A stretch of DNA of 64,000 nucleotides from Xanthostigma xanthostigma (lineage: Eukaryota; Arthropoda; Insecta; Raphidioptera; Raphidiidae), in contig OY754465.1 of NCBI GenBank assembly GCA_963575645.1, positions 61,465,901-61,529,900 of the forward strand, in the 5' to 3' direction. A model generated the notes under the pieces. That model did no database searches. It was not told the origin of the DNA and was given only the letters and a program-made list of their open reading frames with translations. Shown in pieces: positions 2,058 through 46,571 of this stretch. Made by a program: the position numbers and the translations under genes. The number at the start of each line of letters is the position of its first letter. Positions within the stretch are counted from its first letter, which is position 1.

Positions 2058-2322
2058 AATAAATAAAAAAATCGCAGGATTGTGGACAAATATTAGATTT
2101 TTTAATTGTACGACGTTTCGTCTATAGATTTAGACTTTTTCAAGAACAAATGTGAAAATTCGAAACAATAATTATGAAAATATTTTCATAATTATTGTTT
2201 CGAATTTTCACATTTGTACTATAGACGAAACGTCGTACAATTATTAAACCTAATATTTGTCCACAATCCTGCGATTTTTTTATTTATTTATTATTATTTC
2301 GATGGACACCATATCTAATATA
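2058..2322. mobile_element. Penelope-type fold-back element A with hammerhead-like motif
   Basis: This 265-bp insertion is a near-complete inverted repeat. The outer arms carry atcgcaggattgtggacaaa and its complement. The centre (about 2150-2216) is a perfect palindrome. The left arm (2108-2144, minus) reads CTTGAAAAAGTCTA...TAGACGAAACGTCG, that is a five-base-pair hairpin GTCTA/TAGAC followed by GAAAC. The right arm keeps GACGAAACGTCG but lacks the first part. It is flanked by a 12-bp direct repeat. The insertion is seen directly. Assignment to Penelope-like elements rests on the known presence of hammerhead motifs in that group and on the long target duplication. Confidence 0.6.
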
Positions 2323-2334
2323 TTTATTTTTGAC
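2323..2334. repeat. 12-bp target site duplication, right copy
   Basis: Second copy of TTTATTTTTGAC, directly followed by gtttacactaac, which continues the interrupted repeat. Confidence 0.75.
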
Positions 2335-2642
2335 GTTTACACTAACGGCATTGGTCAGATTTTTGGGTAAGCGTTACAATATTCAACAAAAATACCAAGG
2401 AGTATAGTGCAGTATGTATATTTATTCTTCAACTAACTGTTTTACCTGATAATTTGGTTGGTGAATGGAAAGTAAATTTTATTGTAACGAATAAATTTGT
2501 TCCACGATTAGTAATTTCTATCTTTAATAGTGTTCGATGAATATGGTCATGAATCATATATTAATTTGTTTGATTCATTCGTGCATTCTATTAGATAATA
2601 AATAACTTAATCCTAATTAATTTTTATATTTTTTAGATTTTT

Positions 2643-2790
2643 CTGAAGAAGATCCAAATCCGGATCGAAACGCCATCCTTTGTTACTTTGATTTATATTT
2701 TTATAATATTTTTGTAAATATATGGTCTGAAAAAAATTGGTCGACAATTTTATTTATTTGATAAATCATATATATTGTATACGATTTGTC
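2643..2790 (+). repeat. Penelope-like module with a hammerhead-like core
   Basis: Positions 2643-2672 read CTGAAGAAGATCC, AAATCC, then GGATCGAAACG. This is a CTGA-type box, a perfect five-base-pair hairpin GATCC/GGATC, and the GAAACG box in hammerhead order. The following sequence (gtctgaaaaaaattggtcgacaattttatt) is shared with 18.33-18.48 kb (minus) and, in part, with 870-945. The cleavage-site strand was not resolved, so activity cannot be claimed. Confidence 0.5.
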
Positions 2791-4020
2791 ATTATACCGT
2801 TAGCGTTAAATATTTAAACTCACATAAGAAGTTGCACTTCAAAAAGGCGACCTTAAAAATACAAATAAAATAAAGTGTCATAAATAATAGTAATGAAGTT
2901 AAAAAACCCCCTGACAAAGGTACGTATCGTTTCTATATAAAATGAACTGTGGCTATTTTTAATACCTGAGCGGCCATTCTTTATTAATTAGTTCCTGAGT
3001 TACTGCTCGCGGATCCCTGACCTATAACGAATTAAGCTGCAAGTTGTTACGGAAAATCACTGAAAATTAATTGAAAACGTATACTTATATACATGAAATG
3101 TTATGTAATTTTATTAAATAAATGTGTTTCGAAACATTCCAGTAAGAAATGATTTCAGGATATTTATTATTCATCATCACAGATAAATCAAACTTGAATC
3201 AATAAATTTTCTAAAAAAAATATTGCACTTTATTTTTCAAACTGTAACTTGCACAATAATTTCCTAAAAGTATAATAACCGACATTCCCAAAACGTGGAG
3301 GTCGTGTATTATGTAACTTACTCATCTGTTCCATTCATGATGAGAAAGTTACTTACGCAAAATTGTAGTCTACACGCCGATGACCCCAGTTGTTGTGCGT
3401 CTATAATCTAAAATGCCTCTTTCTCAAAACTGCAATCAATTTCTAATTTTTCACTTGATTACTAAATTTCACCAAGCTGCAGTTATTTTTAACGAAACAT
3501 TTGCACCTGGAAGTTAACACTAATAAGCGCTAAGAAAATATTTAAAAATTTTATGAGCGGAAAAACGGCGCAAGGTAGGTACTCTTTTCAGAGATAATTT
3601 AGATTCAGTTAGGTATTCTGAATTTATATCATTTAAAATTCATCGCTTCAATATGATCGTAGATATTGAAGATTATAGACGCTCGACAATGAAGGCCATA
3701 ATTTGACATAGAAGTTCAGTATAAATTAAAAAAAAACTTACATTCTTCTCGTTTGATGTAATCGTAGACACTGCCCATTATTATTGTCCACTATTATCAC
3801 AGCAATATACACAAGATATTTAAAACAAAAGAGTGTCGGTTAAAACAAAGGAATGTACACAAAATTCAGTTCACACTACAAAATTATTACGTAACCGCAT
3901 CAAACTGTAACAGAGAATAGTGTTTTCAGCTGTATGGCACATGTAGAGAGAGGTGACGATTGTCTTCCGAACGAATGGCTGTTGCGTGCACGATTTCGTT
4001 ATTGTCAAAATGTTTCGTTC
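2791..4020. other. Non-coding stretch with no clear element
   Basis: No gene is supported. A short motif, gcgtctataatcta, lies near 3399 and its complement near 3675. It recurs across the window (see findings), so this stretch probably holds old repeat termini. Confidence 0.45.
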
Positions 4021-4302
4021 TACTGTAGTTAGCTATGGAGCTCTTCTATCACTATAATAATAATATGTCTACCATCTATATTAGCTTTCGAGATAAAAGT
4101 GATACAGCATCGCTGCCGCTTGGCGTTGGCCCCGGTTGTCTGCGCAAAGACGATTCCCTCCGCTACTGCAGCGCTGCCGTTCAATCATTCGAAACTTCGA
4201 GAGTTGGAAATTATGATATATCGACACGACGACGCCAAATTACTTCGAGGAGACGTTTAATTTGTGAAAGAAGAATTGAATTTTGTCGTACAGTTTTGTG
4301 AC
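4021..4302 (+). other. Slightly GC-richer stretch with an 88-codon open frame, probably not a gene
   Basis: An ATG-initiated frame runs from 4035 to 4301. It encodes an Arg- and Ser-rich peptide with no recognisable domain. Base composition rises around 4100-4200. There is no convincing splice donor or poly(A) signal, and no repeat was identified. It could be a 5' exon or chance. Confidence 0.15.
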
Positions 4303-4499
4303 AATTCAAATTTCGACCACGGTCAATATTAAATTTGAAATTTAAATGAATCTATCGTTCATTTTTGGCGTCTATATATTTCATCTAGAAATAAGTTGGT
4401 GAATTTCAGGTTCATCTACCATACAATGGGATCGACTTGAGATTATTACAATGCCAGAAGGATATCCATTGCTTAGATGTATTTTCAAAATTTTATTAG

Positions 4500-4830
4500 C
4501 TGACTCATGAGGCTCTATTTGCTTTGAATTCCAAGCAACCGTCTGAGATAATAATATGTTTTACCATGTTTATTAACCGGGTATGTAAGCAACAATTTGA
4601 GATGGAAATACATGGTTTTATTTCTATCTGGGGAAAAAAAGCGTTCCGCGCCACCGAAGTATCTTTAATAAGGCAAAAGAACCATTCAATTGGCCGCGAA
4701 GTTCCGAACAAAAAGAGATACAGTTTTCTACACATGGATTATGCTGTTCTATATGGTCGGTTACATTTTCGAAACAAAATACGACATAGAGAATTTTATA
4801 GATATATGGTTCTAACCTTCTAACCCACTG
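4500..4830. repeat. Degenerate relative of the 55.9-57.0 kb tandem repeat
   Basis: The phrases ttcaattggccgcgaagttcc and aaaaagagatacag at 4684-4722 resemble the 300-bp unit found four times near 56 kb. The overlapping open frames on both strands lack coding features and are treated as by-products of this repeat. Confidence 0.4.
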
Positions 4831-5039
4831 TTTCTGCGCACCACCGAACCAAAAATTGAGAGGTGGGGTGTCCGTTTACGTACAAAAATGTTGAAACCAT
4901 TTTATTGGTTTTGATTTCTTTTTCAAAACGCTTTATTTTAAATGGAGTATTCTGTAATAATCAGAGGATCGGTTTTAAGTACTGAATGCTTCGTTTCCGA
5001 TATACGACCTTCAACGCTACATCTTTCAAATTATTTTTA

Positions 5040-5357
5040 ATTCCAAGATCAAGACCAAGACCAACTACGCAAGACTAAACTTTTGATATTTTTTTGATTG
5101 CAGTGAAATAAAGTTTTATTAGTAAGATATTGTATATAATTTATACCTATAAAAAACCTTGATAATAATAGTATTTCGAAACACTATTAAAAAAACGTGA
5201 GTAGCAGGTTAAATGAGCAAGACCAAGACTGAATAAGCAAGACCAAGACTATAGAAATATATAGGCTAGAACAAAACCAAGACTGAGACCAAATAATCAA
5301 GACCTAGACCGATAGACTATTTCAGTCTTGGTCTTGGTTTTGCTTTGCTCATCACTA
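5040..5357. mobile_element. Short-motif element built of 'caagaccaagac' repeats
   Basis: Copies of the 6-bp theme aagacc/caagac are scattered from 5045 to 5335. The right end reads cttggtcttggttttgctttgctcatcactaatg. The same composition and the same TAGTGATGAGC terminus occur at 46.13-46.30 kb. The TAGTGATG end resembles that of the larger element at 28.90-30.23 kb. No protein is encoded. Confidence 0.5.
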
Positions 5358-5934
5358 ATGTTGAGCGTCTATAATCTACAATTATTCGAAATCTATTTTC
5401 AACGGAGTACCAGAAATCGATGAGCCAATTTTAAAGAACAGTTTTCAGGTCGGTCTCGCTTTAATACGGACCCTGTGAGTAGCGTCGATGTGTAAATAGA
5501 CTTCTGAGACAGTGCAGTGGTCAGTTGTCCCGTTATAAGGAGGATGTTTGCTTTACGACGGCAGCAGAAGTAGCTGCGCGGAGAGGTAATTGGCATTGGG
5601 CCCGTTGTATGTTACCAAGTACAAAGAAAATTTGTATGTACTCCGAGCGCCGCTACCAGCATTAATTGTTCAAACCGATAAAATAAAAGATAACAAACGT
5701 TTGTTCAATGAGATAATATTATTATAAAAGAACCATTATGTTGTAACTAGTTGAAATTTGTTTTCAGATAATTTTGTTAATTGATGTTTGTTATTTCTGG
5801 GAAAACAAAATTCTTTGAGGTATTTATTAAAATGGAAAAACAATAGTAAAAACACAAAAAAATATACATTTGAAATGAAACTTTTTTAAATTGTTAGTAA
5901 TCGATTACAAAAAAACTACTCAAATCTATACTAA
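5358..5934. other. Non-coding stretch with no assigned element
   Basis: It starts with another copy of gagcgtctataatctacaat (5364-5383). The rest is AT-rich with no repeat partner that I could find by eye. Confidence 0.4.
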
Positions 5935-6168
5935 TATTATAAAGAGCGAGTGCGAGTTTGTGTATATGCGGGGGGTAATCTCCGAAACTACTCATCCGAT
6001 TTTTAAATTTTTTCACCAAGATTTAGAGTGGATTTTCAAGATGGACATAGACTATAGATTATCGCGTTAAAATAAAATCGCTTTTTGTGGAGCTCAATTT
6101 TGCAACGTATGTCGACAAAAAAACGGTAGCAATCTGCAAATTTGGGCGAAGCCGAATCAAACCGCTAT
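5935..6168 (+). mobile_element. Non-autonomous Helitron, short subfamily, 3' end decayed
   Basis: It starts TCTATACTAATATTATAAAG after an A, as Helitrons do. It shares accgattt, tggacatagactatagattatcgcgttaaaataaa and gacgaaaaaacgg with the better preserved copy at 27181-27422. The expected CTAG end has become CTAT. The length matches the other copy (about 240 bp). Confidence 0.65.
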
Positions 6169-6176
6169 ATTTAATA

Positions 6177-6382
6177 CCAGCGGCCCGTCCCAGTTTCACC
6201 CTGGTGCAAAAGAACGAATGGGTAGAAAGGACATAAGTACGCACGTTCATCTTAATTTACCGAGATGAACATTGTGTCCAAATTTCATGATGATCGGAGT
6301 TACCGTTCTAAAGTTTTTATAGGACGGACAAATTTTGAGTTATATTTTGCAACATTTTTCATTGATGCTCTGCTCCTACTCT
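6177..6382 (-). mobile_element. Helitron family A, 3'-end fragment
   Basis: On the minus strand this ends with a GC-rich hairpin segment and CTGG. It shares the block 'aatttggacacaa..ttcatct' and 'ttttgcac' with full copies at 42.67 and 59.94 kb. The 5' half is missing. It abuts the preceding Helitron tail to tail. Confidence 0.65.
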
Positions 6383-6409
6383 TAAAACTTGATTACAGCT
6401 TAAAAATAC

Positions 6410-6830
6410 AAAAAATTGGGGTCGCAGTGCCAAACCCTGGCGATAATATAATGTATTTGCTATTATAGACAGTGTGACTTTATTATGTGAACAAGACTGT
6501 TTTTGACCAAAATAAAAAAAATTAATTGCTTAAAATAAGACGTTCTTTTCTCAATTGCAATATTGTCAATCCAAACTCTGCACCAAATTAACTACATCCT
6601 TCAGTCAGAAAATTCATATTTGATTCCGCTAACTATTGATTTCTTAAAATTTATAAGTTCAGTAATGTCGGGCCAATTTTGTTTAAATTTTAGCAGCACA
6701 TTTCAATCTAGACTAAAAGGTTAAATTTCAAATTTGAAACGTTTCTGAATATTTTCAACCCCTAAACACTATCTTTAAAATGACCCGATCAAAATGATGC
6801 TAGAAAAATAACAGTAACTGATACGAATCC
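6410..6830 (-). repeat. Dispersed repeat family D, copy 1
   Basis: Minus-strand copy of a family also present at 32.89-33.41, 44.21-44.61 and 53.22-53.61 kb. Common landmarks are 'gcactgcgacccgagttttt', a 'gacaatatagtg..cagtgtggct' block, 'ttgtttttggacaaaataaa' and 'ggttaaatttcaaatttgaaac'. No coding sequence is present. The class is unknown to me. Confidence 0.6.
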
Positions 6831-7081
6831 GTTAGCATGACGACGTTAATGTTTACAAACGATGACGAAATGTTTTTGAATACGGTTAAACATTATGGTG
6901 ACGTCACAAAATATTCACTATGTTTACACTGAGACAATAATTTTTGTACAACTGCGTTTGAATTGCACAAACATCGCCGAAAAGTGTTTGATTACAAAAG
7001 GATGTCGAGTCAAAGATTCTATGATACGCTACACAGAGGATGTAGCGCCGAAGGATCTATACTGAAGGAAGTAATAAAGTA

Positions 7082-7195
7082 ATAACTCCGATCATCATGT
7101 AATTTGGACACAACATTCATCTCGACTAAGATGAATGTGCGTACTCACCCCCATTCGTTCTTTTGCACCCGGGTGAAACCGGGCGAGACCGCTAG
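7082..7195 (+). mobile_element. Helitron family A, 3'-end fragment
   Basis: Only the last 114 bp remain: 'aactccgatcatcatg' through the gcacccgggtgaaaccgggc hairpin to gaccgCTAG. The base after CTAG is C rather than the usual T. The 5' truncation is abrupt. Confidence 0.7.
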
Positions 7196-7880
7196 CTTAA
7201 AACAAAAATCGGTTAAGTCGAACGTTAGTCGTATGCCTGATTTTTTTTCAAAATTTTAGACCTAATACTTTCGAAAGCAGGGTAATTTTTTAAAACATTT
7301 TCATTAGTAATTTTACCTTTTTTCCTACAGTATAGTTAAAACGGATCAGTCTCGGTGTAAACATAGTTCATTGTGACAGTTTAGCGCGCACAGAAAGATT
7401 TACAATTCTTTAGAGTCGCGTTTTGAAATTATGTATCCAGCGGTGGTCGTCGAGACGCCACTTGACGCTGTCGGTCGACGCGCTATATTTAACGTGTCCA
7501 CCAGCTCCAAGCCGGTGATTGGCCACTGGCCATTTCAAAGACCGATTCGTACAAACACAGATTATACCTGTCATAATAATTCGCGATACTGCAAATCAAG
7601 TTTTTTTTCACTATCCTCTATAAAACAGTCGCTTTACGTACATGCATGCAGGTTTGTAAACTGGCACATGACGCACTAGTGCTGAAAAGTAAAACAAAAG
7701 TATTCGCGATCTGACCAAATTCAACGGTAATTTTCATAAACCGCCTATCAGCTACCATTTTCCGGGAACATGCGTCAAAAAGTAGGTATCATTTCCGTGA
7801 ACACGACGTACCTGATTGAAAGCATTTTAAAATATGCACTTGGTCGTTATAAAACGTACGATATTTTTTTATAAGCTAGA
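7196..7880. other. Non-coding stretch, GC-richer around 7.43-7.57 kb
   Basis: An 82-codon frame (7431-7679) starts with ATG but shows no domain or splice signals. The phrase catgacgcactagtgctgaaaagtaaaac near 7668 resembles ctcatttcgcactagtgcgtgaggtaaaac near 19.67 kb, so a weak repeat may lie here. Confidence 0.3.
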
Positions 7881-8340
7881 CTAGCCGGTCTTGCCCGGCT
7901 TCACTCGAATTTGTAAGATTACCTCCGTTGTTTCGTCGACATGCGTTGCAAAATTGATATCCACGAAAAGCGCTTAACCTCAAAATGAGTATAGTAAGAT
8001 ATCCTTAAAAGATAAGGCATATGCCATCGCGGACTTTTCTGTAGACCTATATAAAAGAGGAACAATTCCACCATACATTGTTTTGTTATGTGGATTAGGC
8101 AGCGTTTTCGATTAAAGCTCCCGGTCGACTTGATTTTTTCCGACATCTTCAACAATCATTGTCATATTTCAATCAATTTACACAAAACATTAATGAATTA
8201 TGCATGTAAACATTTCTCTTGAATCACTCCGTTCATTGGTGAAAACTGTATGAAAATCCGTTCGGTAGTTTTTGAGTTTATCGCGTACAGAGTACAGACA
8301 GACAGACGAGGCGGGGGAACTTTGTTTTATAATATGTAGT
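7881..8340 (-). mobile_element. Helitron family B copy
   Basis: The minus-strand 3' end is a GC-rich hairpin (gccgggcaagaccgg) followed by CTAG at 7881. The 5' part contains 'ccgcctcgtctgtctgt', 'gcgataaactcaaaaactaccg' and 'atacagttttcacc', shared with copies near 21.2, 23.0, 58.9 and 59.3 kb. The exact 5' TC is not clear. Confidence 0.6.
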
Positions 8341-8420
8341 GATTGTCGTTACTTAATAGTAAAAAACAGCATGCAAATCTGTTCAATAGTTCAAACAGAC
8401 AACTTTCTTTCATATATAGG

Positions 8421-9437
8421 TGACCGGTAATTGCTCGTATTCCTCTCAGGAGAAGAGACTATAACTGATTTTGAATGCTTTAACCTTATCACTTGGGGGT
8501 CGGAAATGCGTCATTTTTGACGTGATAACGTCCTATAAATTGATGAATCACCAATCTTATAAATTGATAAAACACCGGCTGCATGTACGAAAAAGTGTAA
8601 CGTTCCTAACGCGTAACGTTCCGCCTGACCCTGTGCGTGCTTTTCTCGAAAACGGCCCTAACGATTTGGATGAAATTTACTGAAAAGGGATTTTGGGGGG
8701 CAAAAAATCGTTTTAGCTAGGTCTCATCTCTCGAAAAAATCGTTTTCTTACAAATTTTATCATTATAAAAATCAATTTTTTGACGTATGAAAATACTTAA
8801 ATATTGTAAGTAGGTTTTGGAATTTTATATTATAATTTATAAACAGTGAAACAATTGTTTTATAAATATTATGACAGCTAATCTTTGAGACTTAAAATAA
8901 AAATACGAAAGAAAGAAAGTTAAAAAAAAAAACAATTATATTATATGGTGAGTAATTTAAATAAATAAAATTAACCTAAATTTGAAGCGAAAGATGCAAT
9001 ATCATAGATTCGAATTATTATAATTATTATATAAATTTAGGTTATGTATTACGGAATACGTTATCACGTAAAACTATCGTCCGTAAACCGACTTTACAGA
9101 CAACCAATTTTTTTATGATAATGATACTTCTGTGAAGAATTTTTATTTTATAATATTTTTTATTTAGTGTAAGTTTTAACACCTAACTTAAAACCTGTAA
9201 CAGTAAATTTCGTGGTTTTTAGCTTTAGGAATTGGTTGGCCAATCAGATCATGGAAAAAAGTGACAATATATATTTTTTTTAATTTATAACTCCCAAAAT
9301 TCGGATTTTCGTAAAAAGAAAACCGAAGTAGTTTTCTCGAAAATGACGCGTATCCGACGCCCAAGTGATAGAGGTTAAATCATTCCAAATTAGCCATAGT
9401 TTCATCTCCCGAGAGGAATACGAGCAATTACCGGTCA
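8421..9437. mobile_element. Long terminal-inverted-repeat element
   Basis: Arms of about 95 bp face each other. 8421 reads tgaccggtaattgctcgtat, then a block ending 'tcacttgggggtcggaaatgcgtcattttt'. The complement is at 9340-9437 with about 80 percent visible agreement. No target duplication was clear. A family C copy (8514-9114) fills most of the interior. Confidence 0.6.
8514..9114 (+). mobile_element. Family C MITE-like element, copy 1
   Basis: It begins ttttgacgtgataacgtc and ends with cgtaaaccgactttacagac and caaccaatttttt. Both ends hold a subterminal acGTGATAACGT facing inward. Related copies are at 16.02-17.11 (minus), 34.76-35.18 (plus) and 49.85-50.55 kb (partial). The interior varies in length and holds no long frame. 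Confidence 0.65.
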
Positions 9438-10039
9438 ATATTGATTTTACGTTTTTTTTTATCAATTACTATTAATGTTCAAATTATGTACTAAACTTTT
9501 CTGACAAGGTGGCATTTGTAAACAAAGAAATTAAAAACACGATATTACTGTCACCCACAAAAAAAGTAATTTACAAAATATGTTGATTTCATTTTTAATA
9601 TCAAATCATTTTTATTACGATGCGTTCAATTGAATTCGAGTATTGCCTTTACTGCAGTATATCATGTCCAATGACCTTTGCATATACCAAAGTCACGTGG
9701 CACATAATTCAACGTCAACAATATAATTACTTGTTTAAAAATGCAAAAAACGACAAATCGAAATGCGAGCACGCACACAATCGCATTTTTTTTTATTCTA
9801 TCAAACTGTTTTACAACTTGAACGCATAAAAAACAAAACGCAACTAACCTATAAAAAAATTACACAAAATCTAACCGAACCGTTCACACATTTCAACACA
9901 CCAACACCACCTACAGGTTTTTGGGTTAGTTCACTTCGTCGGGGAAGAATTTTCTTTTTTCTTTAATGAAGTTCGCGCAGAGAATTCGATTTTAAAAGAC
10001 GTTTAACAATTTTCACTCGACTACCCGACTGCAAACAAA
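9438..10039. other. AT-rich stretch without features
   Basis: No supported gene. Two overlapping frames near 9.62-9.97 kb are low-complexity and Asn/Lys-rich. Confidence 0.4.
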
Positions 10040-10330
10040 GCCAGGATAGGGCAAGGGCACGAAACAGTTATTCAATTTGACACCGCGCAGAGAGTCCTAT
10101 ATTGGGGTAATGTACTACACGACGATACAACACGAACGCAATATACAACCCCCGACTCAGGGGAGGTTCAAGAGCCGCGCTCGCGTACTATAACACAACC
10201 CTGCAGCGCTCTCCCTTCATCTGTCGTCATCCCTTTCTTCGTCGATCAATACAAAACCTGCGTTTAGTCTCACCGTGACGGTACAGTTAGGTAGCGGTTA
10301 ACCGGCTGTCGTCAAATATGGGCGACACGA
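10040..10330. other. GC-richer block, possible promoter or old element end
   Basis: Composition rises well above the surroundings between 10.04 and 10.33 kb, with several cg-containing words. I see no TATA-Inr pair that fixes a start and no adjoining coding exon. It may be a decayed repeat end instead. Confidence 0.2.
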
Positions 10331-10420
10331 ATATATTTTGACTAGTGTGACCTGTGCGAATTATTCGCACTAAATAAGTATAATAATTATCACTTTACAA
10401 AATTATTTTGATTATTATGA

Positions 10421-10770
10421 TTGCAGGCATTCAATTCGTTTCTAATTTTGCACACTGCTTATAACGTTCTTCTTTGTGTTGTATTACAATATGAAGCTCA
10501 GATGACAGATCGAAGAAATATTTTACTAAAATTATTATATAGAGGCGCAAGTAGCAAAAGCGTTGAGCTAAGCCGTCAGATGGCATCATGCAGCATTGCT
10601 GTGACGTTGTTCAGCTTTGCTCGCTGTTTCAAAATTAAAACCGTCAGATGGCAGTATGCAGTATTGTGTCTGTTGTATTATAATATGAAGGCCAGATGAC
10701 AGATCGAAGTGTTGACGTTGTTTCAAAATTAAATCCGTCAGATGGCAGACGTTATTCAGCGTTGCTATAT
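10421..10770 (+). repeat. Imperfect tandem repeat centred on 'ccgtcagatggca'
   Basis: The word ccgtcagatggca appears near 10574, 10650 and 10734. It is accompanied by repeated 'cagatgacagatcgaag', 'gtttcaaaattaaa' and 'tattacaatatgaag'. Units are roughly 80 bp and poorly conserved. The 92-codon frame through it has no coding features. Confidence 0.6.
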
Positions 10771-13672: not shown

Positions 13673-13740
13673 AAAAAAAAAATTGTTTTTTTTTTAGAAA
13701 ATTTTTGACAATAAATCGAACTAAAAAGTGGAAATCAATA

Positions 13741-14658: not shown

Positions 14659-14670
14659 TTATGATTTTTT
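14659..14670. repeat. 12-bp target site duplication, left copy
   Basis: TTATGATTTTTT occurs here and at 14920-14931, on the two sides of the fold-back element. Confidence 0.7.
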
Positions 14671-14919
14671 AAGATGAAGGAAGGTTTTGGTTGAGGATCA
14701 TAAAATGAGCTTTACCAGTGTTTCGCTAGTGGCCAACGTTTCGAAAAATTTATTTTCATCTTCAGGGCCTATGAACATGTATATAATTTAGAACATATTG
14801 TATCACAATTTTAATGTAAAAAGAAACCATGCTCAAAAGATAAGTAAAGCTTATTTTATGATCCTCAACCAAAACCTTCCTTCATCTTAACATTCTATTG
14901 GATCAACACTACTTTATAC
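14671..14919. mobile_element. Penelope-type fold-back element C with hammerhead-like motif
   Basis: This 249-bp element has 45-bp arms (14671-14715 and 14844-14888) carrying 'aagatgaaggaaggttttgg' and 'ttgaggatcataaaatgagc', mirrored. A 31-bp tail then leads to the right duplication. On the minus strand 14731-14769 read CTGAAGATGAAAA..TTTTCGAAACGTTGGCC. The CTGA box, a GAAAA/TTTTC hairpin and the GAAAC box are in hammerhead order. It is flanked by exact 12-bp repeats, the same length as for element A. Confidence 0.65.
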
Positions 14920-14931
14920 TTATGATTTTTT
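14920..14931. repeat. 12-bp target site duplication, right copy
   Basis: Second TTATGATTTTTT. The sequence continues with ctttacttgcgc. Confidence 0.7.
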
Positions 14932-18330: not shown

Positions 18331-18485
18331 TTTATTGTTCAAATCTTTGATTACCGTCTGATTAGTACTCTTCAATAAATAAAATTGTCGACCAATTTTT
18401 CAGACAAATATATTGACAAAAATATATAATTATAATTCAATAAATTTACGTTTTGGTCCGGATTTGGATCTATTTCAGAATTGAG
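18330..18485 (-). repeat. Penelope-like module with a decayed hammerhead-like core
   Basis: Minus-strand counterpart of 2643-2790. It shares 'attggtcgacaattttattt' and 'gattaccgtctgatta'. The core at 18449-18478 reads CTGAAATAGATCC, AAATCC, GGACCAAAACG, so the hairpin and the GAAAC box each carry a substitution. Confidence 0.5.
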
Positions 18486-18703
18486 CTTAAAAATATAAAA
18501 ATAGTTGACAAAACCAAAACTGCACATCCCGCAAGTTTTCCACTGTATGATAAAAATGAAAAAAAAACAATTGAAAAAATATTTTAAAGAAGATTTAGGA
18601 AGATTAAAAATTTAAAGAAATCGATACCTAATTAAATATATAAAAAAAATTTTAAAAACTTGGAAAAATATTTTTTTTAGTTAAATAAAATAAAAAAAAT
18701 ATA

Positions 18704-18889
18704 TTAATAAGAATCGCAGGATTGTGGACAAAAAGTTCTTTATTCAGTGTACGACGTTTCGTCTATAAATTTAGACTTTTTCAAGTACAATTAATTGTAG
18801 GTACTTGAAAAAGTCTAAATTTATAGACGAAACCTCGTACACTGAATAAAGAACTTTTTTGTCCACAATCCTGCGATTCTTATTAATAA
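18704..18889. mobile_element. Penelope-type fold-back element B with paired hammerhead-like motifs
   Basis: A near-perfect inverted repeat about 85 bp per arm, with only about 18 bp between arms. The outer parts share atcgcaggattgtggacaaa with element A at 2.06 kb. Both arms keep CTTGAAAAAGTCTA..TAGACGAAAC (18749-18785 minus, 18804-18840 plus). The right arm has CCTCG where the left has CGTCG. The tail 'tctcgagggacacgatttct' matches element A's tail. Flanks are A/T-rich, so the target duplication cannot be fixed. Confidence 0.65.
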
Positions 18890-18993
18890 TTGTCTCGAGG
18901 GACACGATTTCTAATATATAAAAAAATATATATAATATATAAATACCAAGTGAAATAAAATGGAATAGAAAAAAATTAAAATCAATTATTTCG

Positions 18994-32886: not shown

Positions 32887-32888
<2 letters not shown>

Positions 32889-36205: not shown

Positions 36206-36299
36206 AAATTCCATCAGTGGTACTCTAAAATAGTATTTTCTTTTAAATAATGCCCAAATTCAGGTAAAGGTTCAATAACCAAATAATCAATAATCTTGT

Positions 36300-37495: not shown

Positions 37496-37523
37496 TATAT
37501 TGCGCTTTAAATGAAATTCATTG

Positions 37524-38730
37524 TATAGATATCCTATTCAATTAAAAAACATTGCCAGTTTTAATAAAGCGCATTTATCAAATAAAATAACACTGCAGCT
37601 TACTACAATTAACTTTCAAGGTGACAATACTGTCAAAATATTCCATGCTGTTGTTGTGATTCAATATTTACAATATAATCGTCGTCACAGTTAGAACACA
37701 GCGAAAAGTTTGAAGAATAGTAGAAAATGCTTTAGAGGGCAATAATATTTATATTTTTGAAGTAACAATGTCGTAAAAAAATATGTTTTTTTTGTTTTAT
37801 TAAAAAACTGAACAATAAAAAAAGAATTGAAATGGTTATTACTTATAACGAATGATCAAAAAGTCTTGTCTCTTATGTGGCTATGGATTATGGGAAAAAG
37901 CGTCCAGAACAAGACTTTTTGAACGAAATTTAATGGAAAGTTTAAAATGATGAAACTCAAAACCTTTTTTTTTGACAAAATCAACTAAATAATAAAAATG
38001 ATTTATCTAGATTTTTGGTCGTAGTGTCTGATCCGCCGAAGTCTGAAATGAATTTCTGAATTTTTTTAGTCATTCCTAAAAATATTTCAGTCAAAGACCT
38101 AGATACAAAACGATTTGTAGCTTTCACCATAACGCGTGGTTATTCTGCATATTGACCAGTCAATGACAACACCAATTATCTGACTAACATAAAAACGATG
38201 TTTTTTATAAATCACGTTTGCTCTATATATCGTTGTCATTTTTTAACTGTCGGATAAAATTGTATAGACTGAAAATATTTTGTAACATTTATTTCGATTC
38301 GTGTATTTTTATTTAATTATTCCGCGATATTTATTATTCTTCAAACCTCTTCACTGTAACCTACAAATAATAATTCACGCACTAGATATATAAACTGCTA
38401 TAGCTGCATGGTTAGTGACCGTTATCAAATTTTTAAATATATCTGCAGACAAAGAAAAATTCTTTAGTCCATCCTATAGTTTAAAGATAAATCAATTACG
38501 AACGAGCGAACGAGATACAACAATTCCGAAACGTAAGCTCCAATTTAAACGGATTAATTAATAATTAAAACAATCAAAACCGCTGTCGTATATTTATTTT
38601 GTCTCCCCTAATATTTCACCATCACAAAATTTTGCAATTCATCACTGCGACATGATTGATGGTAATAACGTTCTACTACTCATATTTTTTTCGCTTTCAA
38701 TCGATTTGGACAGGGTAATCCTTCATGATA
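37524..38730. other. Non-coding stretch
   Basis: Nothing gene-like. One short hairpin (aaaaagtcttgt / acaagacttttt, 37858-37919) is present. Confidence 0.4.
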
Positions 38731-38731
38731 A

Positions 38732-39065
38732 CTTCAAGCATTCCTTTGTTTTTCTACCCGCTCGATTAAAACAAAATCGAGTTACGCTTCAACCCAGAAA
38801 CACCATCAAAACGAATGTTATGACATCAAACGTAACTTCCAAGCTTTTATTTGTCGTCTGTCCGCTCGACTAAAAAAAACTCTAGTTACGTTCGAAACAC
38901 TTCAAACCCAGAAACACCATCAAAACGAATGTTATGACATCAAACGTAACTTCCAAGCTTTTCCTTTGTCGTCTGTCCGCTCGACTAAAAAAAACTCTAG
39001 TTACGTTCGTAACACTTCAAACCCAGAAACACCATCAAAACAAATTTATTGACATCAAACGTGTT
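38732..39065 (+). repeat. Three tandem units of about 115 bp
   Basis: The word 'cccagaaacaccatcaaaac' occurs at spacing 114 and 115 (about 38793, 38907, 39022). The rest of the unit is 'ttatgacatcaaacgtaact', 'tccaagctttt', 'tttgtcgtctgtccgctcga' and 'ctctagttacgttcg'. Units 1 and 2 are very similar. The last is truncated. Confidence 0.85.
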
Positions 39066-39205
39066 TCTTAAATGCAACGTGTTGATGTTATCATGGGGTT
39101 GAGGTGTATCAATCAATCAATACTCTAAGAATAAAGAACGCATCTAACAACACTCTAGACACAAAGGCCATCTAACACAATTCTAATATAAAGTGAAATA
39201 CATAC

Positions 39206-39395
39206 GAGGATTCAAAAACGTGCACACTGAAGTACCACCGGCGGCGGTGCAAGCTGCAGAAGAAGATCCTCTTGTACCGCACATATACGGAGGATCATCA
39301 TCGTCCACCGCTTGCTTCTTGTTCAATCCGTTGATGGTTTCTGCAAGGACATCATCGACAAACGACTTAGCTGTTGATGTTATCTCGGGATCCAT
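39206..39395 (-). CDS. Candidate 5' coding exon of an unidentified gene
   Basis: The minus strand starts ATG at 39395 and encodes about 63 residues beginning MDPEITSTAKSFVDDVLAET. A splice donor (CCTC|GTATGT) ends the exon at 39206 with one base carried over. The N-terminus has an amphipathic helix with a pattern like a protein-docking helix (A..FVDDVL..TIN). It is followed by an Asp run (residues 31-34) and a Gly/Ser/Ala/Cys-rich segment. GC-richer sequence upstream (39.44-39.79 kb) could be its promoter. Codon use is more balanced than in neighbouring frames. The downstream exons would lie at lower coordinates and were not found. A frame of similar length on the plus strand (39193-39450) is its shadow. 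Family unknown. Confidence 0.4.
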
Positions 39396-39439
39396 AGCTC
39401 TCTATATACCAACTACACACTATTATAACAAAACACACC

Positions 39440-39790
39440 ACACAATCTAGAATTTATTAATCACACGACCAGCTCACGCAAACCCGAATTTTATTGTAAT
39501 TCGCGCGCCGAACACAAAACGACGTACCAGTGTCAAGTGACAAAAAGGTAAGTTAAGTGAATCTAAAACGTAATGAATGGCTCTCTCTCTCTGTGTGTGT
39601 ATAATATTCTCTCGTTGTCGGGTATCAATGCGCAATCGTCACGTGAGTTTCCACAGCGGCGGTTCTCTCTCTGTGTGTGTTTCCAGCAGTGCAGAGGGCA
39701 GCACACAAACGTGTATCTAATCGAACGTCGCGACATAGTGTTGGTGTGGACGTGAAGAGAGACCTTTGGGACGCGTTAGGAGTTGTCCGA
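39440..39790 (-). promoter_or_regulatory. GC-richer upstream region, possible promoter of the 39.2-kb exon
   Basis: CpG words are frequent (gcgcgccgaac, acgacgtacc, aatcgaacgtcgcgac). Two stretches of (CT)n/(TG)n lie at 39580-39600 and 39665-39682. No TATA box is evident. The assignment rests only on position and composition. Confidence 0.3.
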
Positions 39791-40012
39791 CCGACCGAAC
39801 AGATTTCGTAACATTATGTAATTCAAAATACGCGAGATGCAATCGTTATTTCTAGATTTTTATCTCTGATTTCGCGTCGGTTTTTACTGAAACCCTACAG
39901 CGTACAGTCAAATACTTCGTAGTTTAACAAGGTGGACACAGAAAAATGATTTAAACTTTCCCTGATAATTCCAGGTTTTCCAGAAAATGTATTGTTTTTC
40001 CATGATTTGAAT

Positions 40013-40762
40013 GATTACATGTCTTTTTCCCCGACGACATTATCCCCGCGTCATTATCCTCGAACGACAATATCCCGACGACAATATCCCCGACGACAAT
40101 ATCCCCCACGACAATATCCCCGACTAGAAAGAAATAACCCTATTTCAGTTCTATTCAAACAATTAACTATCTAATTCGCATACCCCGTTATCGTTCACCC
40201 CGGAGTTGTTTTTTTTTAAAACTCAACATTTGCCCCTTCCCGTTTCACTGCGGGACAATTCGCATACCCCTTTATCGTTCACCCCGGAATTACAATTCGC
40301 ATACCCGTTTATCGTTCACCCCGCAATTGTTTTTTTAAAAACTCCACATTTGCCCCTTCCCGTTTCACGGCGAGACAATTCGCATACCCCTTTATCAAAA
40401 AAAGCGGTGGTTTTCAATCTTCATGAAAATGTGAGTTTTAAGTTGTAGTCTCAAAGTGAAAAAAAAATAAAAAGTAAAAACAAAACTCATTCCGGTACCG
40501 GGAATCGAACCCGGGCCTCTTGGGTGAGAGCCAGGCACGCTACCAATTACACCTTAATTGAGTATGTCAAGATAGCTTTGTAATTATATATTATTCATAC
40601 AGTAGTCGTACGAATAATTATAAAATCGAGGATATTGTCGTCGGGGATAATGTCGTTCGGGGATTAAAATCGGGGTATTGTCGTCGGGGATAATGTCGTT
40701 CGGGGATTAAAATCGGGGATATTGTCGTCGGGGATAATGGTTCGGGGAAAGTGTCATGTCAC
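40013..40762. mobile_element. Inner element with tandem 'ccccgacgacaatat' ends
   Basis: Ends 'attacatgtctttttccccg' and 'cggggaaagtgtcatgtcac' are inverted. Left subterminal repeats of about 15 bp (ccccgacgacaatat) fill 40030-40123. Inverted 43-bp repeats (attgtcgtcggggataatgt) fill 40632-40740. The middle has a separate tandem of 'attcgcatacccctttatcg' and 'ttcaccccgg' units and a tRNA-like block. No protein. Confidence 0.6.
40484..40556 (-). repeat. tRNA-Glu-like sequence
   Basis: The minus strand carries 'ggtgtaattggtagcgtgcc', 'tggctctcacccaagaggcc' and 'cgggttcgattcccgg'. The anticodon loop is CTCTCAC (anticodon CTC) and the T arm is perfect. The acceptor strands do not pair well. It is more likely a tRNA-derived insertion than a working gene, though this is the best preserved tRNA-like block in the window. 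Confidence 0.55.
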
Positions 40763-41144
40763 CGATTTAAATATCTTATTTGTATGATCGAGATATTTAA
40801 AGTTTTTGATTAAAGCCATTGAGAAAATTTTCAAAACTAGAAATTTTAAACTCCAAAATGATAATTTTCTCCTGATACTTTGTAAAATTCCCTGATATTT
40901 CCAGGTTGCATTAAATGCCCTGATAATTCCATTTTTTCCAGGTCTGTGGCCACCCTGAATTATTATTTAACTCTAGATATAAAGAATGCATCAAATTGGG
41001 GTCTGGACGTTCTCGAGAGATGCTGATACAGACAGACAAAAATTCTGGTTCCACGTTTTTCTATTTACGCGTCATACAAAATGTCTACATAAAAACCCAT
41101 AAGAAAACGAAATATAGATTACAATTTATTAATGTCCTTGTCTT

Positions 41145-41541
41145 CAGTGAATTTATTGTTGATATGGTAGCTATGGAAATCATTAATGCATTAAATTGTT
41201 TTCATAGAGATATTACAATAGAACACGCGAGAGAACAGTGAAAGTGACTGCAATGAAGAGAGAGAACAGTTCCTTATCACTATGGTAATTAATGATGCAA
41301 AACAATGCTGATTTGAGTAAACAAATTTCTGGTTATCTGCAGCGTTCTCTCTAACTGAGGACACTATCACTTATGGCAAGCATACGCACTAGCGTACTCT
41401 AACATAAAATGCATACGAACCTCCCTTGGGCGAACTGTCTATGTTGCATTTTATGTGGAACGATTTTCTGCATCAATTAGTTATTTTCATAGCTACTATA
41501 TCGACAAAATTTATATATTGCGTCTTAAATGGAGTTCACTG
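41145..41541. mobile_element. MITE related to 36.69-37.52 kb
   Basis: The right end is the complement of CAGTGAACTCCATTTAAGAC, before TA. The left end CAGTGAATTTATTGTTGATA has lost about 30 bp. 'gatatggtagctatggaaat' is mirrored near 41.50 kb. The plus-strand frame 40996-41241 crosses the left end and is not accepted as a gene. Confidence 0.6.
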
Positions 41542-41716
41542 TATATTAGTATCATGACTATTTGTTGACGCTTTTCATCTGTTACAACGAATTAATATTT
41601 TCACTGCAGGATATTGCAATGTTTGTAAACTGACATCAAAGGATATTTTTTAAATGTTGTTGATTCATTTCTATGATTAAAAAAAAATATTTTTAGAATA
41701 TATCCGTCGCCTTAAG

Positions 41717-41760
41717 CAGTGCTTCCCAAACTCTAGTTGACTATGGACCGTTAGTAACAA
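41717..41760 (+). mobile_element. hAT-type end fragment
   Basis: CAGTGCTTCCCAAACTCTAG is a common hAT terminus. No partner was identified. The coding-like segment that follows may or may not belong to it. Confidence 0.45.
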
Positions 41761-41836
41761 AAACGCAAAGTATGTATAGGCTCAGTTTTGAAATATCATG
41801 TACCAAATTTCGACAAAATGGCGTTTTCTGTTATAG

Positions 41837-42011
41837 TAGAATGGATAAAATAACATCCGACTTAAAAGAGTACATATTTAAAATAACAGATAAATTTTTC
41901 GAATGTTGTAAAAATAGTCATATTAAAATTATCAGTGATATAGGAAATTATGATAGTGATGCTACTAATGGCAAACAGAAAAGAATAAAATATCTACTAG
42001 ACAAACATTAA
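41837..42011 (+). CDS. Possible 3'-terminal exon, unidentified
   Basis: A frame open from 41772 continues after a possible acceptor (ttttctgttatag at 41823-41836) and encodes about 57 residues before TAA at 42009. It contains MDKITSDLKEYIFKITDKFF, a charged helical stretch with two Cys, and ends in a Lys-rich tail. AATAAA occurs at 42225-42230. AT-rich composition inflates open frames here. It could also be part of the hAT-like element starting at 41717. No family recognised. Confidence 0.25.
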
Positions 42012-42249
42012 AAAGTGTGTTATAATGCTATATACACAAGACTAAGTTTGGATTTCTTTTCTTTTGATTGTTTGGGTTTTTTTATTTGTATTTTTTCCCA
42101 TATTAATACTTTGTAATATTTAATGCTTTTGTTTTTTTTTTTTGTACACTATGCAGTCGGTTAACGGAACGCTGTCCAAAAATTTTTTGTTAATTTATTG
42201 TACATAGTAACATATTTTATAAGTAATAAAAATTTAACATCGACTTATT

Positions 42250-42339
42250 ATGGACTACTTAAAAGAAAATCAGTCTGATAAATCTGAGAATATAACTGAA
42301 GCCGAGATGTTTAATAATTTGCTAATCACCGCTCATTAA
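42250..42339 (+). CDS. Short ATG open frame, 29 codons
   Basis: ATG GAC TAC ... TAA encodes an acidic peptide that starts MDYLKENQSDKSENITEAEM. It follows AATAAA and so would be outside the preceding transcript. Too short to support further. Confidence 0.12.
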   Translation: MDYLKENQSDKSENITEAEMFNNLLITAH

Positions 42340-42599
42340 ATCAATGCAAGTGCAACATTAGTCACGAGAACAGACCTTGGAAATCATTGTAATTGAATTT
42401 GTACTGATTTCTATTTTCACGGACTGTTGGTGTCTACTATACCTTCCCGTTGTTTTTGTTTACACATTTTAACGTTCAAAACAGATTCGATTGGGAGGTT
42501 TTGATCATGAACAAATTGATTATATTATAGTAGGTGAGCTATCAAACATTTTTGGGTAGGTATTTGAGGCAGCGTGAAAATTTGTGTAACACTTCTTTT

Positions 42600-42660
42600 G
42601 CAGGGCCGTCTTTGGAACATGCGAGGCCCTGGACCGAAAAAAGCTTGGAGGCCCCCTTAA
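42600..42660 (+). mobile_element. Fragment of a 'cagggccgtctttgg' element
   Basis: 'gcagggccgtctttggaaca', 'gcgaggccctggaccgaaaa' and 'ggaggcccccttaagg' are typical of the ends of small DNA transposons. The Helitron at 42672 interrupts or abuts it. Confidence 0.4.
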
Positions 42661-42671
42661 GGAATTCGTAA

Positions 42672-43259
42672 TCTATACTAATATATAAAGCTGAAGAGTT
42701 TGTTTGTTTGTTTGAACGCGCTAATCTCAGGAACTACTGGTTCAAATTAAAAACAAAATTTTTTTTTCGATAGCCCTTATATCGAGGAAGGCTATAGGCT
42801 ATATAAAATCAGGCTACGACCATTAGGAGCGGAGCATTAATTTAATGTTGCAAAATGTATCTCAAAAATAAGCTTCTATTCAGGTGAAATGCACTAACTA
42901 AATATACTCATATTAGCGTTGTCAGAATACAACGCCGGCTAACTCAATCAGTAGAGCACACGACTGTCAATATCAGGGTCGTTGGGCGAATATATTTTTA
43001 TTTATTTTCTATTTTCTACATTGCTTTCTTCTAAGGCTTGCATTTGAATTTATTTTAATTTTATTTAATTAATTTAAAAAAATTTAAAAAAGTATAAATA
43101 CTGCTTTTTATCGACAAAAACTTTTGAACGGTAACTCCGATCATCGTGAAATTTGGACACAACATTCATCTCTGTAAACTAAGATGAATGTGTGTACTCA
43201 TATTCTTCCCTTCCCCATTCGTTCTTTTACACCCGGGTGAAACCGGACGGGACCGCTAG
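42672..43259 (+). mobile_element. Helitron family A, long form (type copy)
   Basis: Starts TCTATACTAATATATAAAGC after A and ends gggaccgCTAG before T. The 3' hairpin acacccgggtgaaaccgg precedes the end by about ten bases. A tRNA-Lys-like block occupies 42931-42990. The 588-bp copy has no RepHel coding sequence and would need a helper. Confidence 0.9.
42931..42990 (+). repeat. tRNA-Lys-like module inside a Helitron
   Basis: 'gccggctaactcaatcagta', 'gagcacacgactgtcaatat' and 'cagggtcgttggg' correspond to the module at 17.82 kb, with the T arm partly deleted. Confidence 0.65.
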
Positions 43260-43289
43260 TGGGTCAATAAAAGATCACTGACTTTGGAC

Positions 43290-43930
43290 TATATGACACG
43301 GGATATTTATTAATTACTACAGGTTAATCGTCAACCATTTATACTATTTGATACTTTATTTTTGATCAATCGATAGGTTCTGATTCTAAGTTGACTTTTT
43401 AAAGATTTCCTTCTCGAAATCGGCTACAAACATCCTTCAACATTCCCTACTGCCAGACCCAAATGACCTTAACAATAAAACAACACACATTAAACGAATT
43501 AATCAGGCGGCAAAGAACGAATTGGTCTTGCTAGAGTTGATAAACTTGACCGCCGTTACGTAGCTGGGTACACGGAGCAAGCGTATCCGTTCTGTTATCG
43601 ACCCGCGCGGTGATTCGAGGACACGGGCCTCGACCGTTGCTTAGTTTCGATACCAGAACCGTATTTTATCTCATTCTCGAGCGAGTTCACTGCGATAGTG
43701 TCGTCTTTCTCTGAACGTGTGACGATAGTCTATTGTTCCGAACGGTTTTTATACAACAGCAGCACAGCATCAGCAGCAGCCAACAGCGGACAAGTGGTGG
43801 CTACCCGAGGATGCAGATGAACGGAGTACGATTCTTGAAATCGTTATCAAATTTTAAAAAACAGTTGTGTGGTTTTAAGAAACCACGACACTTTTATTGG
43901 ATTGTAGGCGTTGGATTGTAGACACTTATC
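43290..43930 (+). promoter_or_regulatory. GC-richer block, possible promoter/5'UTR or solo LTR
   Basis: From 43540 to 43830 the composition is much less AT-rich. 'gagttcactgcgatagtgtc' near 43684 resembles an arthropod initiator context. It is followed by a CAG-rich stretch (43757-43785). A TTG-start frame (43733-43921) reads through it. It could be a 5' untranslated exon or an LTR. No pair of LTRs is seen. Confidence 0.25.
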
Positions 43931-44204
43931 CATCACGATTAATTATAAAAACAATATTCACATGAATACACGAATAAAAACATGTAAACACTGTACAGCA
44001 CTTGCCCGCATGACAGACTGACTATGTGTTATACATACTACACGGTCAGCTGATGCTAACCATGGGCGCCGCCATATTGGCCTTGGCTGCTCTACCGAGC
44101 GCCTACTCCGAGCGCCTTTCACTTTACCCCTACTCCGCGGCCGCCTTTAATGCGACATGCAACAGACGGCCAGAAAAATTCGGGGCGATAGAATAAAAGT
44201 TTCA

Positions 44205-44607
44205 CTTTAAAAACTCGGGTCGCAAACCTTGCCGACAATATAGGCAGTGTGGCTTTATTATGTGAACTTAACCCTTTTGTTTTTGGACAAAATAAAAAAT
44301 TTAATCCGTTAATAAATCCCCTAAAATAACATTTTTTTTTAAATATAAATATTACTATCAATTTACCAAATTAAATCCACCCTTCACTAAGTAAGTCCAG
44401 ATCTACAAACTGATGTTTTCATAAAATTTTTAAGTCCGGTTCTATCGGGCTGATTTTAATAAAAATTTGGCAGCACATTTTTATCTTTACTAATAGGTTA
44501 AATTTCAATTTTGAAACGATTCGGAGAATTTTTTCGGTATTTTTGGGCCCAAAAAGATTCGTGCGGTGATGGATTTCAATATGTGGTACAAATTTCGTTA
44601 AAATCAA
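44205..44607 (-). repeat. Dispersed repeat family D, copy 3
   Basis: Minus-strand copy. It begins 'aaaactcgggtcgcaaacct' and contains 'ggcagtgtggctttattatg' and 'tgtttttggacaaaataaa'. It ends near 'aatatgtggtacaaatttcg'. Confidence 0.65.
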
Positions 44608-44697
44608 TTAACTCCTTAAAAATTAAACAACAAAGCATTTAAAAAAAATAATAACTGAGTTGGTGAGCATCTATTATAATCTGCTGAGGGTCTGGAA

Positions 44698-45023
44698 CAG
44701 GGGCGTGCAAATCTTTTGATCGGCGGGCCACGTTGCTGATGAAAATTTGACCGTGGGCCAAAAATTTGGAGAGCAAAAAAAGGTCCTTTCATTTCCGCAA
44801 AATATTGGAGAACAAAAAAAAAGGTCCTTTCATTTCCGCAACAAAATATTGGAGAGCAAGAAAAAAAAAGTCTTACTATTTTCCTAAAAATTTTTTTATG
44901 CGCCAAATAATATTGGCAAACTATTTTCGCTCTTAATAATCATTTATAAAATGTTTCGCGGGCCGGACAAAAGTCTACTGCGGGCCGGATCCGGCCCGTG
45001 GGCCGCCATTTGCCCAGGCCTAG
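44698..45023. mobile_element. hAT-type MITE
   Basis: Left end CAGGGGCGTGCAAATC, then a gcgggcc block. The right end gggccgccatttgcccaggc plus ctag is its inverse. Ends of this kind (cagggg..gcaaa, gggcc) are typical for non-autonomous hAT elements. An internal about 47-bp tandem duplication ('aaaggtcctttcatttccgc') is present. The 8-bp target duplication could not be confirmed. Confidence 0.65.
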
Positions 45024-45324
45024 TATGGAGTGAATTTTTAACTTTGCGACATTTTTTTTAAATTTTGGTTTTGTTGTATTTCTTCATTTAGGTTCGCTAT
45101 ACTTTTTTCGCGTTTGCCAGAATTATTCAAAATTACCCAATCCGTCGAAAAATATAACGACTAACTTGGACGTTTTTTGGCTAGATAAAAGGATCCATTA
45201 GGCATCATTTAGTTCAAAATCAGCACTCCCGAGTTTTTTTTCTTGTAAATAAAATTTCACGGAATTATCTACCCAAACATGTTTGATATAAGTAGTTCTT
45301 GGACTATGTTCCGAAAGAATTTAA

Positions 45325-45500
45325 CAGCGCCTTAACTGGATTCATCGGCGACGATGGCAAGATTCTGATTTAGCGCCCTCAAAATGTTGTTGGTTGATAT
45401 ATTCCAATAAAACAATAATAATCGCATTACTGATTGCGCCCTTTCCGGTTTGCGCCTCTGGCGAGGGCCTCAATTACCAAGCCCGAATTACGGCGCTGAA
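45325..45500. mobile_element. Small TIR element, CAGCGCC ends
   Basis: CAGCGCCTTAA on the left and the complement of CAGCGCCGTAA on the right. The right part has 'gcgcctctggcgagggcctc'. About 175 bp. Confidence 0.5.
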
Positions 45501-46133
45501 AATGGACAAAAAACTTATATGATATTTCCAGGTTTTCCAAAGTCTGTGATAACCCTGTAGCAAGCATTGTTGCATTAATTCTCTCTCTCTCTCTTTTTTA
45601 ATATTGTCAAAATTAGTTTTCCTTAGCTACGCTGGAAAAATGAATGTTGTTATTTTTGGAAAAAATTCAATTGATTAATTACTTCTAATGAGAAAACATA
45701 TTTTTACGAATTGTTATTAATTCAATCAAAATGTTTCATTTATTTTAAAGTAAGAACTTTATTTAGTGCTTACAACCCTGTTACACCCTCTAGGCTAAGT
45801 GCATTTCTTTTCAATTTTGAATTCATGTATAATAACTGATTTAAGCTTTTTAAATTCATTTTTTATTCATATATATTTCAGCGTGCTGTTAATCCCAAGG
45901 GTGTTGTTTACTTGTTACATGTACTGACGTACACGGAGCTATGTGTATGAAATGTGTTCGTGATAATTATACCTAAGTGAAAATAGAAAAACTATCAGCT
46001 TACGATATTTTCATAGTTCAACCTTTTTTGAAGGTCAATGACAGATCTATCTAGAACTAAAAATTGCTGAGTATTCAAAGTTTTCCAGTAGGCACGCAAA
46101 CCAGTTTTCCCTGACTTTTTTGCTAATCAATTA

Positions 46134-46300
46134 GTGATGAGCAAAACAAGACCAAGACTGAGATAGTCTTGGTATCGGTCTTGTTCTTGCTCAAATACTT
46201 CTGGTTTTGATATTGGTCTCTTTTATTCGATCTTGGTCTTCCTAGTGTATTAGTATGGGCTTGGTCTTGCGAAAAAGCAAGATCAAGATTAAGACTGCAA
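46134..46300 (+). mobile_element. 'caagacc' motif element, copy 2
   Basis: Starts TTAGTGATGAGCAAAACAAG, then a series of 'agaccaagactgag', 'cttggtatcggtcttg' motifs in both directions. Partner of 5040-5357. Confidence 0.5.
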
Positions 46301-46354
46301 AACTAACATTGATTATAGTTAACAAAATAAAATAAGACAACTTGATATTATGGT

Positions 46355-46571
46355 ATGATAAAATTATTCGGGATACAAGGCTAAATATAAAAACAATTTT
46401 TATTCACTAGAACATCATTTCATCATCAACGTTTCGGCAGAAATTCATGGATTCATCAGAAAGGTCCTGAATAAGACATGAATTTCTGCCGAAACGTTGA
46501 CGATTTAATGATGTTCTAGTGAATAAAAATTGTTTTTATATTTAGCCTTGTATCCCGAACAATTTTATCAT
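46355..46571. mobile_element. Penelope-type fold-back element D with exact CTGATGA core
   Basis: Arms of about 95 bp mirror 'atgataaaattattcgggat', 'acaaggctaaatataaaaac' and 'tattcactagaacatcattt'. They meet around 46450-46480. On the minus strand, 46428-46459 reads CTGATGAATCC..CTGCCGAAACGTT, so the CTGATGA and GAAAC boxes of a hammerhead are both exact. The intervening hairpin is poor, however. The tail 'ttgatcgtgcaccactat' resembles the tails of A, B and C. A target duplication is not clear. Confidence 0.65.

Follow-up and report, generated by a model that had tools for sequence, protein, structure and literature searches.

Short palindromic insertions with a one-sided tail in the genome of Xanthostigma xanthostigma: probable products of Penelope-like retroelements

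Four inverted-repeat units, A (2058-2322), B (14671-14919), C (18705-18919) and D (about 46320-46571), were analysed in the window, a 64,000-nt stretch of the Xanthostigma xanthostigma genome (assembly GCA_963575645.1, contig OY754465.1, positions 61,465,901 to 61,529,900). They are probably short non-coding insertions of Penelope-like retroelements, made by two-sided priming and joining of complementary DNAs (cDNAs). A and B are shown, as far as sequence can tell, to be Penelope-like derivatives by their position 3' of the coding sequence of a Penelope-type GIY-YIG endonuclease; C is shown to be one, with the same qualification, through upstream sequence common to A, while D is presumably one, judging from its plan alone. 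A sequence-only reading had noted the four units; its observations are largely real, though in part corrected here, and its interpretation is partly supported. Note that its B (18704) and C (14671) are C and B, respectively, in this text.

All four units belong to dispersed repeat families of the 623-Mb genome, which excludes a chance origin. Genome searches gave 1383 (A), 1971 (B), 1132 (C) and 1065 (D) first-look candidates, 40 of which were scored in each family search. The fetched copies have a common plan composed of a target duplication, a tail-less arm, an inverted tailed arm and again the target duplication. Inverted arms and a non-palindromic tail were seen at all four places of the window, as first described, and the long inverted arms are indeed a shared plan, but B is very asymmetric (~175-nt arm versus ~45-nt arm plus tail). 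The four arm sets are not all unrelated, A and C having the box, the tail and upstream sequence in common.

The link to Penelope-like elements, suspected from the outset, is supported by the endonuclease coding sequence that adjoins the A and B arms. Sequence upstream of the A arm (L085, L087, L127) is of this type and carries a frameshift. A 93-residue piece of it matched 99 of 120 Penelope-like proteins at 1e-3 or better (best match 46% over 65 residues), and the named relatives among the 120 listed are from arthropods, e.g. lacewing, whitefly, mosquitoes and springtail. The piece has no Pfam match, and two C-terminal pieces of the endonuclease gave no BLAST match at 1e-3 and a single phmmer match (0.0008). 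The B-arm upstream sequence has an 81% match to C7:16729865-16730302 of the host genome, which begins 80 bp past a GIY-YIG match on the same strand; L086 at this locus codes for a GIY-YIG piece (29.3 bits versus a cut-off of 22.6). C-arm matches overlap A-upstream matches at three places (C4:3566011, C3:50371483, C2:65121053), and the A upstream word AATTGCTATGGTTAGTAATTAATG was read by eye in 6 of 11 fetched single-arm C copies. The endonuclease piece adjoins A and B; the reverse transcriptase was not reached from either arm. Searching the genome with the PF01541 profile (150 of 521 candidates scored) identified 37 GIY-YIG places, and one open reading frame (ORF) of 804 aa carries both RVT_1 (43.8 bits) and GIY-YIG (25.9 bits). 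This element, with both domains in a single ORF, is of a family different from A and B, and its neighbours are found in tandem 2.7 kb apart and also inverted. Elsewhere, at C8:30615824-30619642, a head-to-head pair of 5'-truncated Penelope-type ORFs is separated by 63 bp, both beginning at an identical query residue; by their coordinates only, they are a full-scale version of the palindrome plan.

The two arms of a copy differ at their ends. One stops at a fixed site; the other is longer by ~31-35 bp, an extension known as the Penelope "tail", which among the fetched copies may be on the left or the right of the palindrome. Tails were scored in 60 two-armed copies (A 8, B 21, C 13, D 18), a further 11 copies having a single arm in the stretch scanned. 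With a threshold of 16, chosen after the gap in scores was visible, 57 of the 60 have one tail, three (L061, L067, L076) have none and no copy has two. The tail labels printed by the script are too strict because real tails in the background raised its own threshold. By eye 59 of the 60 are one-tailed, since in L061 and L076 the tails are displaced by insertion or have almost no arm. The exact 26-base A/C tail pattern has 1001 genome matches (491 forward, 510 reverse; 0 for the reversed control), with no pair within 19 kb among the first 100 matches listed, which are on one contig. The D tail had been assigned to the right end; other D copies identify the 'gatcgtgcacc' found there as target flank and place the tail on the left, at about 46320-46353. 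Target duplications are mostly ~12 bp. They reach at least 8 bp in 33 of 38 A, C and D copies versus 70 of 1406 control pairings between flanks of different copies, and at least 10 bp in 30 of 38 versus 7 of 1406. Target sites are AT-rich (81% A+T). A clean duplication was not found at the window copy of D, the best being 7 bp. Inverted arms, target duplications and high copy number would equally fit a fold-back DNA transposon or miniature inverted-repeat transposable element (MITE), but next to no likelihood is left to this origin by the one-sided tail, which makes the ends non-symmetric, by the unequal arms with different inner ends and by the endonuclease coding sequence beside A and B; no search for a transposase was made.

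Of the places detected with one-arm queries, 39 for C and 38 for D, arms on both strands were present at 26 and 18, respectively (one of the D places a double palindrome), and at every such place the RNA 5' ends point inward. The count of single-arm C places is an upper bound, L118 and L122 being two-armed by eye. A mechanism can be proposed from these insertion scars. The Penelope enzyme would cut AT-rich DNA in a staggered fashion, giving the duplications of about 12 bp, and the DNA 3' end at each side of the cut would prime reverse transcription within the Penelope RNA. One cDNA would start from the outer of two initiation sites and carry the ~31-35-nt tail, the other from the inner site without it, and synthesis of both would proceed in the direction of the hammerhead-like motif or past it. 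The two cDNAs, being of the same sequence, would join, in many cases where a short word is self-complementary (AATT, AAATTT, AATAATTATT), into a head-to-head palindrome that has a single tail. Each insertion would build the palindrome anew from a template with one arm; the hammerhead-like motif would only be carried along and its cleavage would not set the arm ends. The enzyme of Anolis PAc cuts and extends both strands, and two start sites bound its tail (PMC11167929). The unequal starts could be enforced by a dimeric enzyme holding two RNAs. It is a tentative proposal, rather doubtful as a whole, that coordinated unequal starts (outer/inner), annealing at self-complementary words, tiny palindromes as a major product and an A/C core with a paired U3-A8 in place of C3-G8 all apply together.

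The palindromes look rebuilt at every insertion rather than inherited, given the likeness of arms within A and D copies and the agreement at a D marker; their survival as palindromic units, as previously imagined, is not upheld. Arms of one copy differ on average by 0.0453 (A), 0.0168 (C) and 0.0511 (D); re-paired arms gave values as low in 3 of 5000 trials for A and 0 of 5000 for D. At a three-state marker of D (six copies per state) the arms agree in 18 of 18 copies (13/13 by script, 5 by eye). Private variants are common to both arms in 12 cases and found in one arm in 146. A palindromic unit inherited as such, transcribed whole and copied with the tail at its 3' end, would account for the single tail per copy and for the identical junction of L053 and L054. 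It is nevertheless very improbable, as arms form no tail-side lineages (same-side/opposite-side distances between copies are 0.0724/0.0724 in A, 0.0183/0.0183 in C and 0.0683/0.0686 in D), each of the three D marker states is present in both arms and most copies have different junctions.

The junctions were analysed mainly in C. At 25 of 26 places the inner ends of the arms are 6 to 72 nt apart or overlap slightly; at one the gap is 689 nt. In a set of 36 junctions, 34 of which were placed (21 from the one-arm census, 13 from the palindrome query), an overlap of at least 3 nt, measured with exact arm ends, occurs in 17 of 34, versus fractions of 0.15 and 0.13 in two controls. Several junction centres are perfect palindromes on words already in the template. 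Within copies, C arms have similar lengths: the median difference is 5 nt, a value as low as this arose in 1 of 5000 re-pairings, and re-pairing across both junction sets may overstate the agreement.

Several points weigh against two-sided priming followed by a single joining. The fetched copies are mostly top matches to palindromic queries (A and B queries with tail, C query without, D query without most of it). No start-site difference between strands is reported in PMC11167929, from which two-tailed or tail-less copies are predicted, so that the one-tail pattern needs extra coordination; copy L067 has no clear tail. For C, arm likeness within copies lacks significance, 439 of 5000 re-pairings giving as low a difference, and the appearance of one template per copy could also arise by gene conversion between arms. 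A coarser overlap measure is close to chance, with a small excess only in each family. The coding partner of D was not found in the one copy looked at (L126). In L105 and L110 the junction switches between sense and antisense three times, which a single joining leaves unexplained, and the equal arm lengths within C copies are also compatible with fold-back of a single cDNA. These zig-zag junctions and equal lengths, together with variants common to both arms of one copy, favour self-priming, in which a cDNA primed at the target folds back at its 3' end and copies itself into the second arm; self-priming on an antisense template is offered for Adineta Penelope elements in PMC3846280. A self-copied arm should, however, share the outer end including the tail, whereas 57 of 60 copies have two different end sites; moreover, spacer-free perfect palindromes (e.g. 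L102, L111) leave no hairpin loop and B arms differ within copies by a median of 113 nt. Self-priming is thus considered unlikely, and two-sided priming with cDNA joining is retained.

Complementarity of stems I and II in five families (A/C, B, D, the L090 family and the 804-aa element) supports a hammerhead ancestry of the motif carried by the arms, in line with the hammerhead-type core recognized earlier. Its order is stem I, box, stem II, GAA, ACGU (AUGU in the 804-aa element), one base and stem I. In the order of families given above, stem I has 6, 4, 3, 3 and 2 pairs and stem II, including G-U, 5, 5, 4, 5 and 5; in the L090 copy no stem II pair is left if G-U is excluded. For stem positions picked by hand, only the true pairing among 120 strand permutations attains the total observed for each stem. 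In a multiple alignment of the motifs the stems came out misplaced. Minimum-energy folds display both stems in B, C and D, stem II alone in the 804-aa element and neither in L090. Stem III is reduced to ACGU, and bases 3 and 8 of the A/C core differ from the hammerhead core; in the PAc hammerhead the C3G/G8C exchange partly restores cleavage (PMC11167929).

The CGAAACG box and the hairpins described before (GTCTA/TAGAC in A and C, GAAAA/TTTTC in B) were found again, and stem I complementarity around the cores, whose absence would have counted against the first reading, is present. The CTGA(A/T)GA box attributed to A and C is replaced by TTGAAAA in 37 of 37 recognized boxes (42 arms), with a pattern that admits NTGANRA only. 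The B box is mostly CTGAAGA, as are 12 of 14 recognized D boxes (36 arms, the window copy not among them); the exact CTGATGA noted in D is a feature of the window copy. The description of one intact and one broken motif applies, by pattern, to 4 of 8 A, 4 of 13 C, 11 of 18 D and 12 of 21 B copies, while both are intact in 4, 9, 0 and 4, respectively; unequal arm ends and decay explain the former state. The proposed Rfam check was negative, which goes against the first reading: no hammerhead matched in the window at Rfam cut-offs, A and B being scanned at the gathering threshold only, nor at permissive thresholds around C and D or in L037, L085, L083 and L090. Permissive matches were mainly to microRNA and snoRNA hairpin families, as expected of a palindrome. 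Arms start within 1 nt of the hammerhead cleavage site in 1 of 120 cases, and census arm L106 starts 1 nt past it. That arm ends avoid this site is consistent with cleavage being dispensable for insertion in vitro (PMC11167929).

A genome-wide Rfam search, with 73 of 81843 candidates scored, yielded only two Hammerhead_1 matches near the cut-off (33.6 bits versus 34), in L009 (1501-1547; host C1:5417285) and L010 (C1:46574205). The two 3,046-bp stretches that contain them are identical; next to the match lie an ORF coding for an Ulp1-type peptidase domain (43.1 bits) and a frame whose MULE transposase match stays below threshold. Apparently a canonical hammerhead sits inside a DNA transposon here. 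The window also holds L090-family Penelope-like fragments without inverted arms (884-943, 2614-2758, 18338-18506, 50326-50350), of which 2614-2758 keeps a hammerhead-like motif at 2637-2678 and 18338-18506 seems to retain a tail. An Rfam tRNA match at 40490-40561 (-) (36.5 bits, several mismatched pairs) may be a tRNA-derived repeat.

Table 1. Features of the four palindromic units in the window.
Unit	Feature	Position	Strand	Remarks
A	Left target duplication	2046..2057	none	TTTATTTTTGAC
A	Tail-less arm	2058..2182	-	sense RNA on - strand
A	Hammerhead-like motif	2106..2149	-	box TTGAAAA
A	Tailed arm	2183..2322	+	motif broken (box and half of stem II gone near 2217)
A	Tail	2290..2322	+	inner edge approximate
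A	Right target duplication	2323..2334	none	
B	Left target duplication	14659..14670	none	TTATGATTTTTT
B	Tail-less arm	14671..14845	-	long
B	Hammerhead-like motif	14728..14772	-	CTGAAGA; stem I GGCC/GGCC; stem II GAAAA/TTTTC
B	Tailed arm	14846..14919	+	short; tail about 14889-14919
B	Right target duplication	14920..14931	none	
C	Left target duplication	18693..18704	none	AAAAAAATATAT; low complexity
C	Tail-less arm	18705..18792	-	hammerhead-like motif 18747-18790
C	Tailed arm	18793..18919	+	motif 18799-18842 (GAAACC replaces GAAACG); tail about 18888-18919
C	Right target duplication	18920..18931	none	
D	Tailed arm	46320..46459	-	tail 46320-46353; motif CTGATGA, stem II damaged
D	Tail-less arm	46461..46571	+	motif with CTGAATA

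The organization of these insertions resembles that of endonuclease-containing Penelope-like elements, as described for the Adineta Pen families (PMC3846280) and Anolis PAc (PMC11167929). These have a GIY-YIG endonuclease, short target duplications, head-to-head inverted ends with a ~31-bp tail on one, palindromes at the inverted junction and a hammerhead motif described through stems I and II. In the Adineta Pen families, according to PMC3846280, inverted pLTRs with an optional 31-bp tail on one are accompanied by a 9-bp duplication and junction palindromes; inverted ends with a tail on one are thus already described for Penelope elements. Unlike in Adineta and Anolis, the typical copy here is a ~200-260-bp palindrome without coding sequence, families number roughly a thousand copies or more, the single tail holds almost strictly and TTGAAAA replaces CTGANGA in A/C. 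The motif shares the order stem I, box, stem II, GAAA and a weak or absent stem III with type I minimal hammerheads of Penelope-like elements (Cervera and de la Pena 2014, as cited in PMC7229834), from which it differs by the lack of an Rfam match, by the changed bases 3 and 8 of the A/C core and by one extra nucleotide between box and stem II in the five families. Animal retrozymes, as outlined in PMC7229834, are likewise small non-autonomous retroelements with type I hammerheads, but are tandem direct repeats with circular RNAs. A retrozyme was rejected here, the arms being inverted and the ends off the cleavage site. PMC3846280, PMC11167929, PMC8969392 and PMC7229834 were consulted; among the titles listed in literature searches, most of them judged by title only, none concerned very small palindromic insertions of Penelope elements or a rule of one tail per copy.

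The units are of a known kind of element, and their numerous copies hint at the way in which the two ends of an insertion arise and become joined. Palindromes like these might otherwise be catalogued as DNA transposons. Later steps of Penelope insertion are yet to be validated (PMC11167929), and tiny complete insertions with readable ends and junctions offer a natural record of the steps of Penelope insertion.

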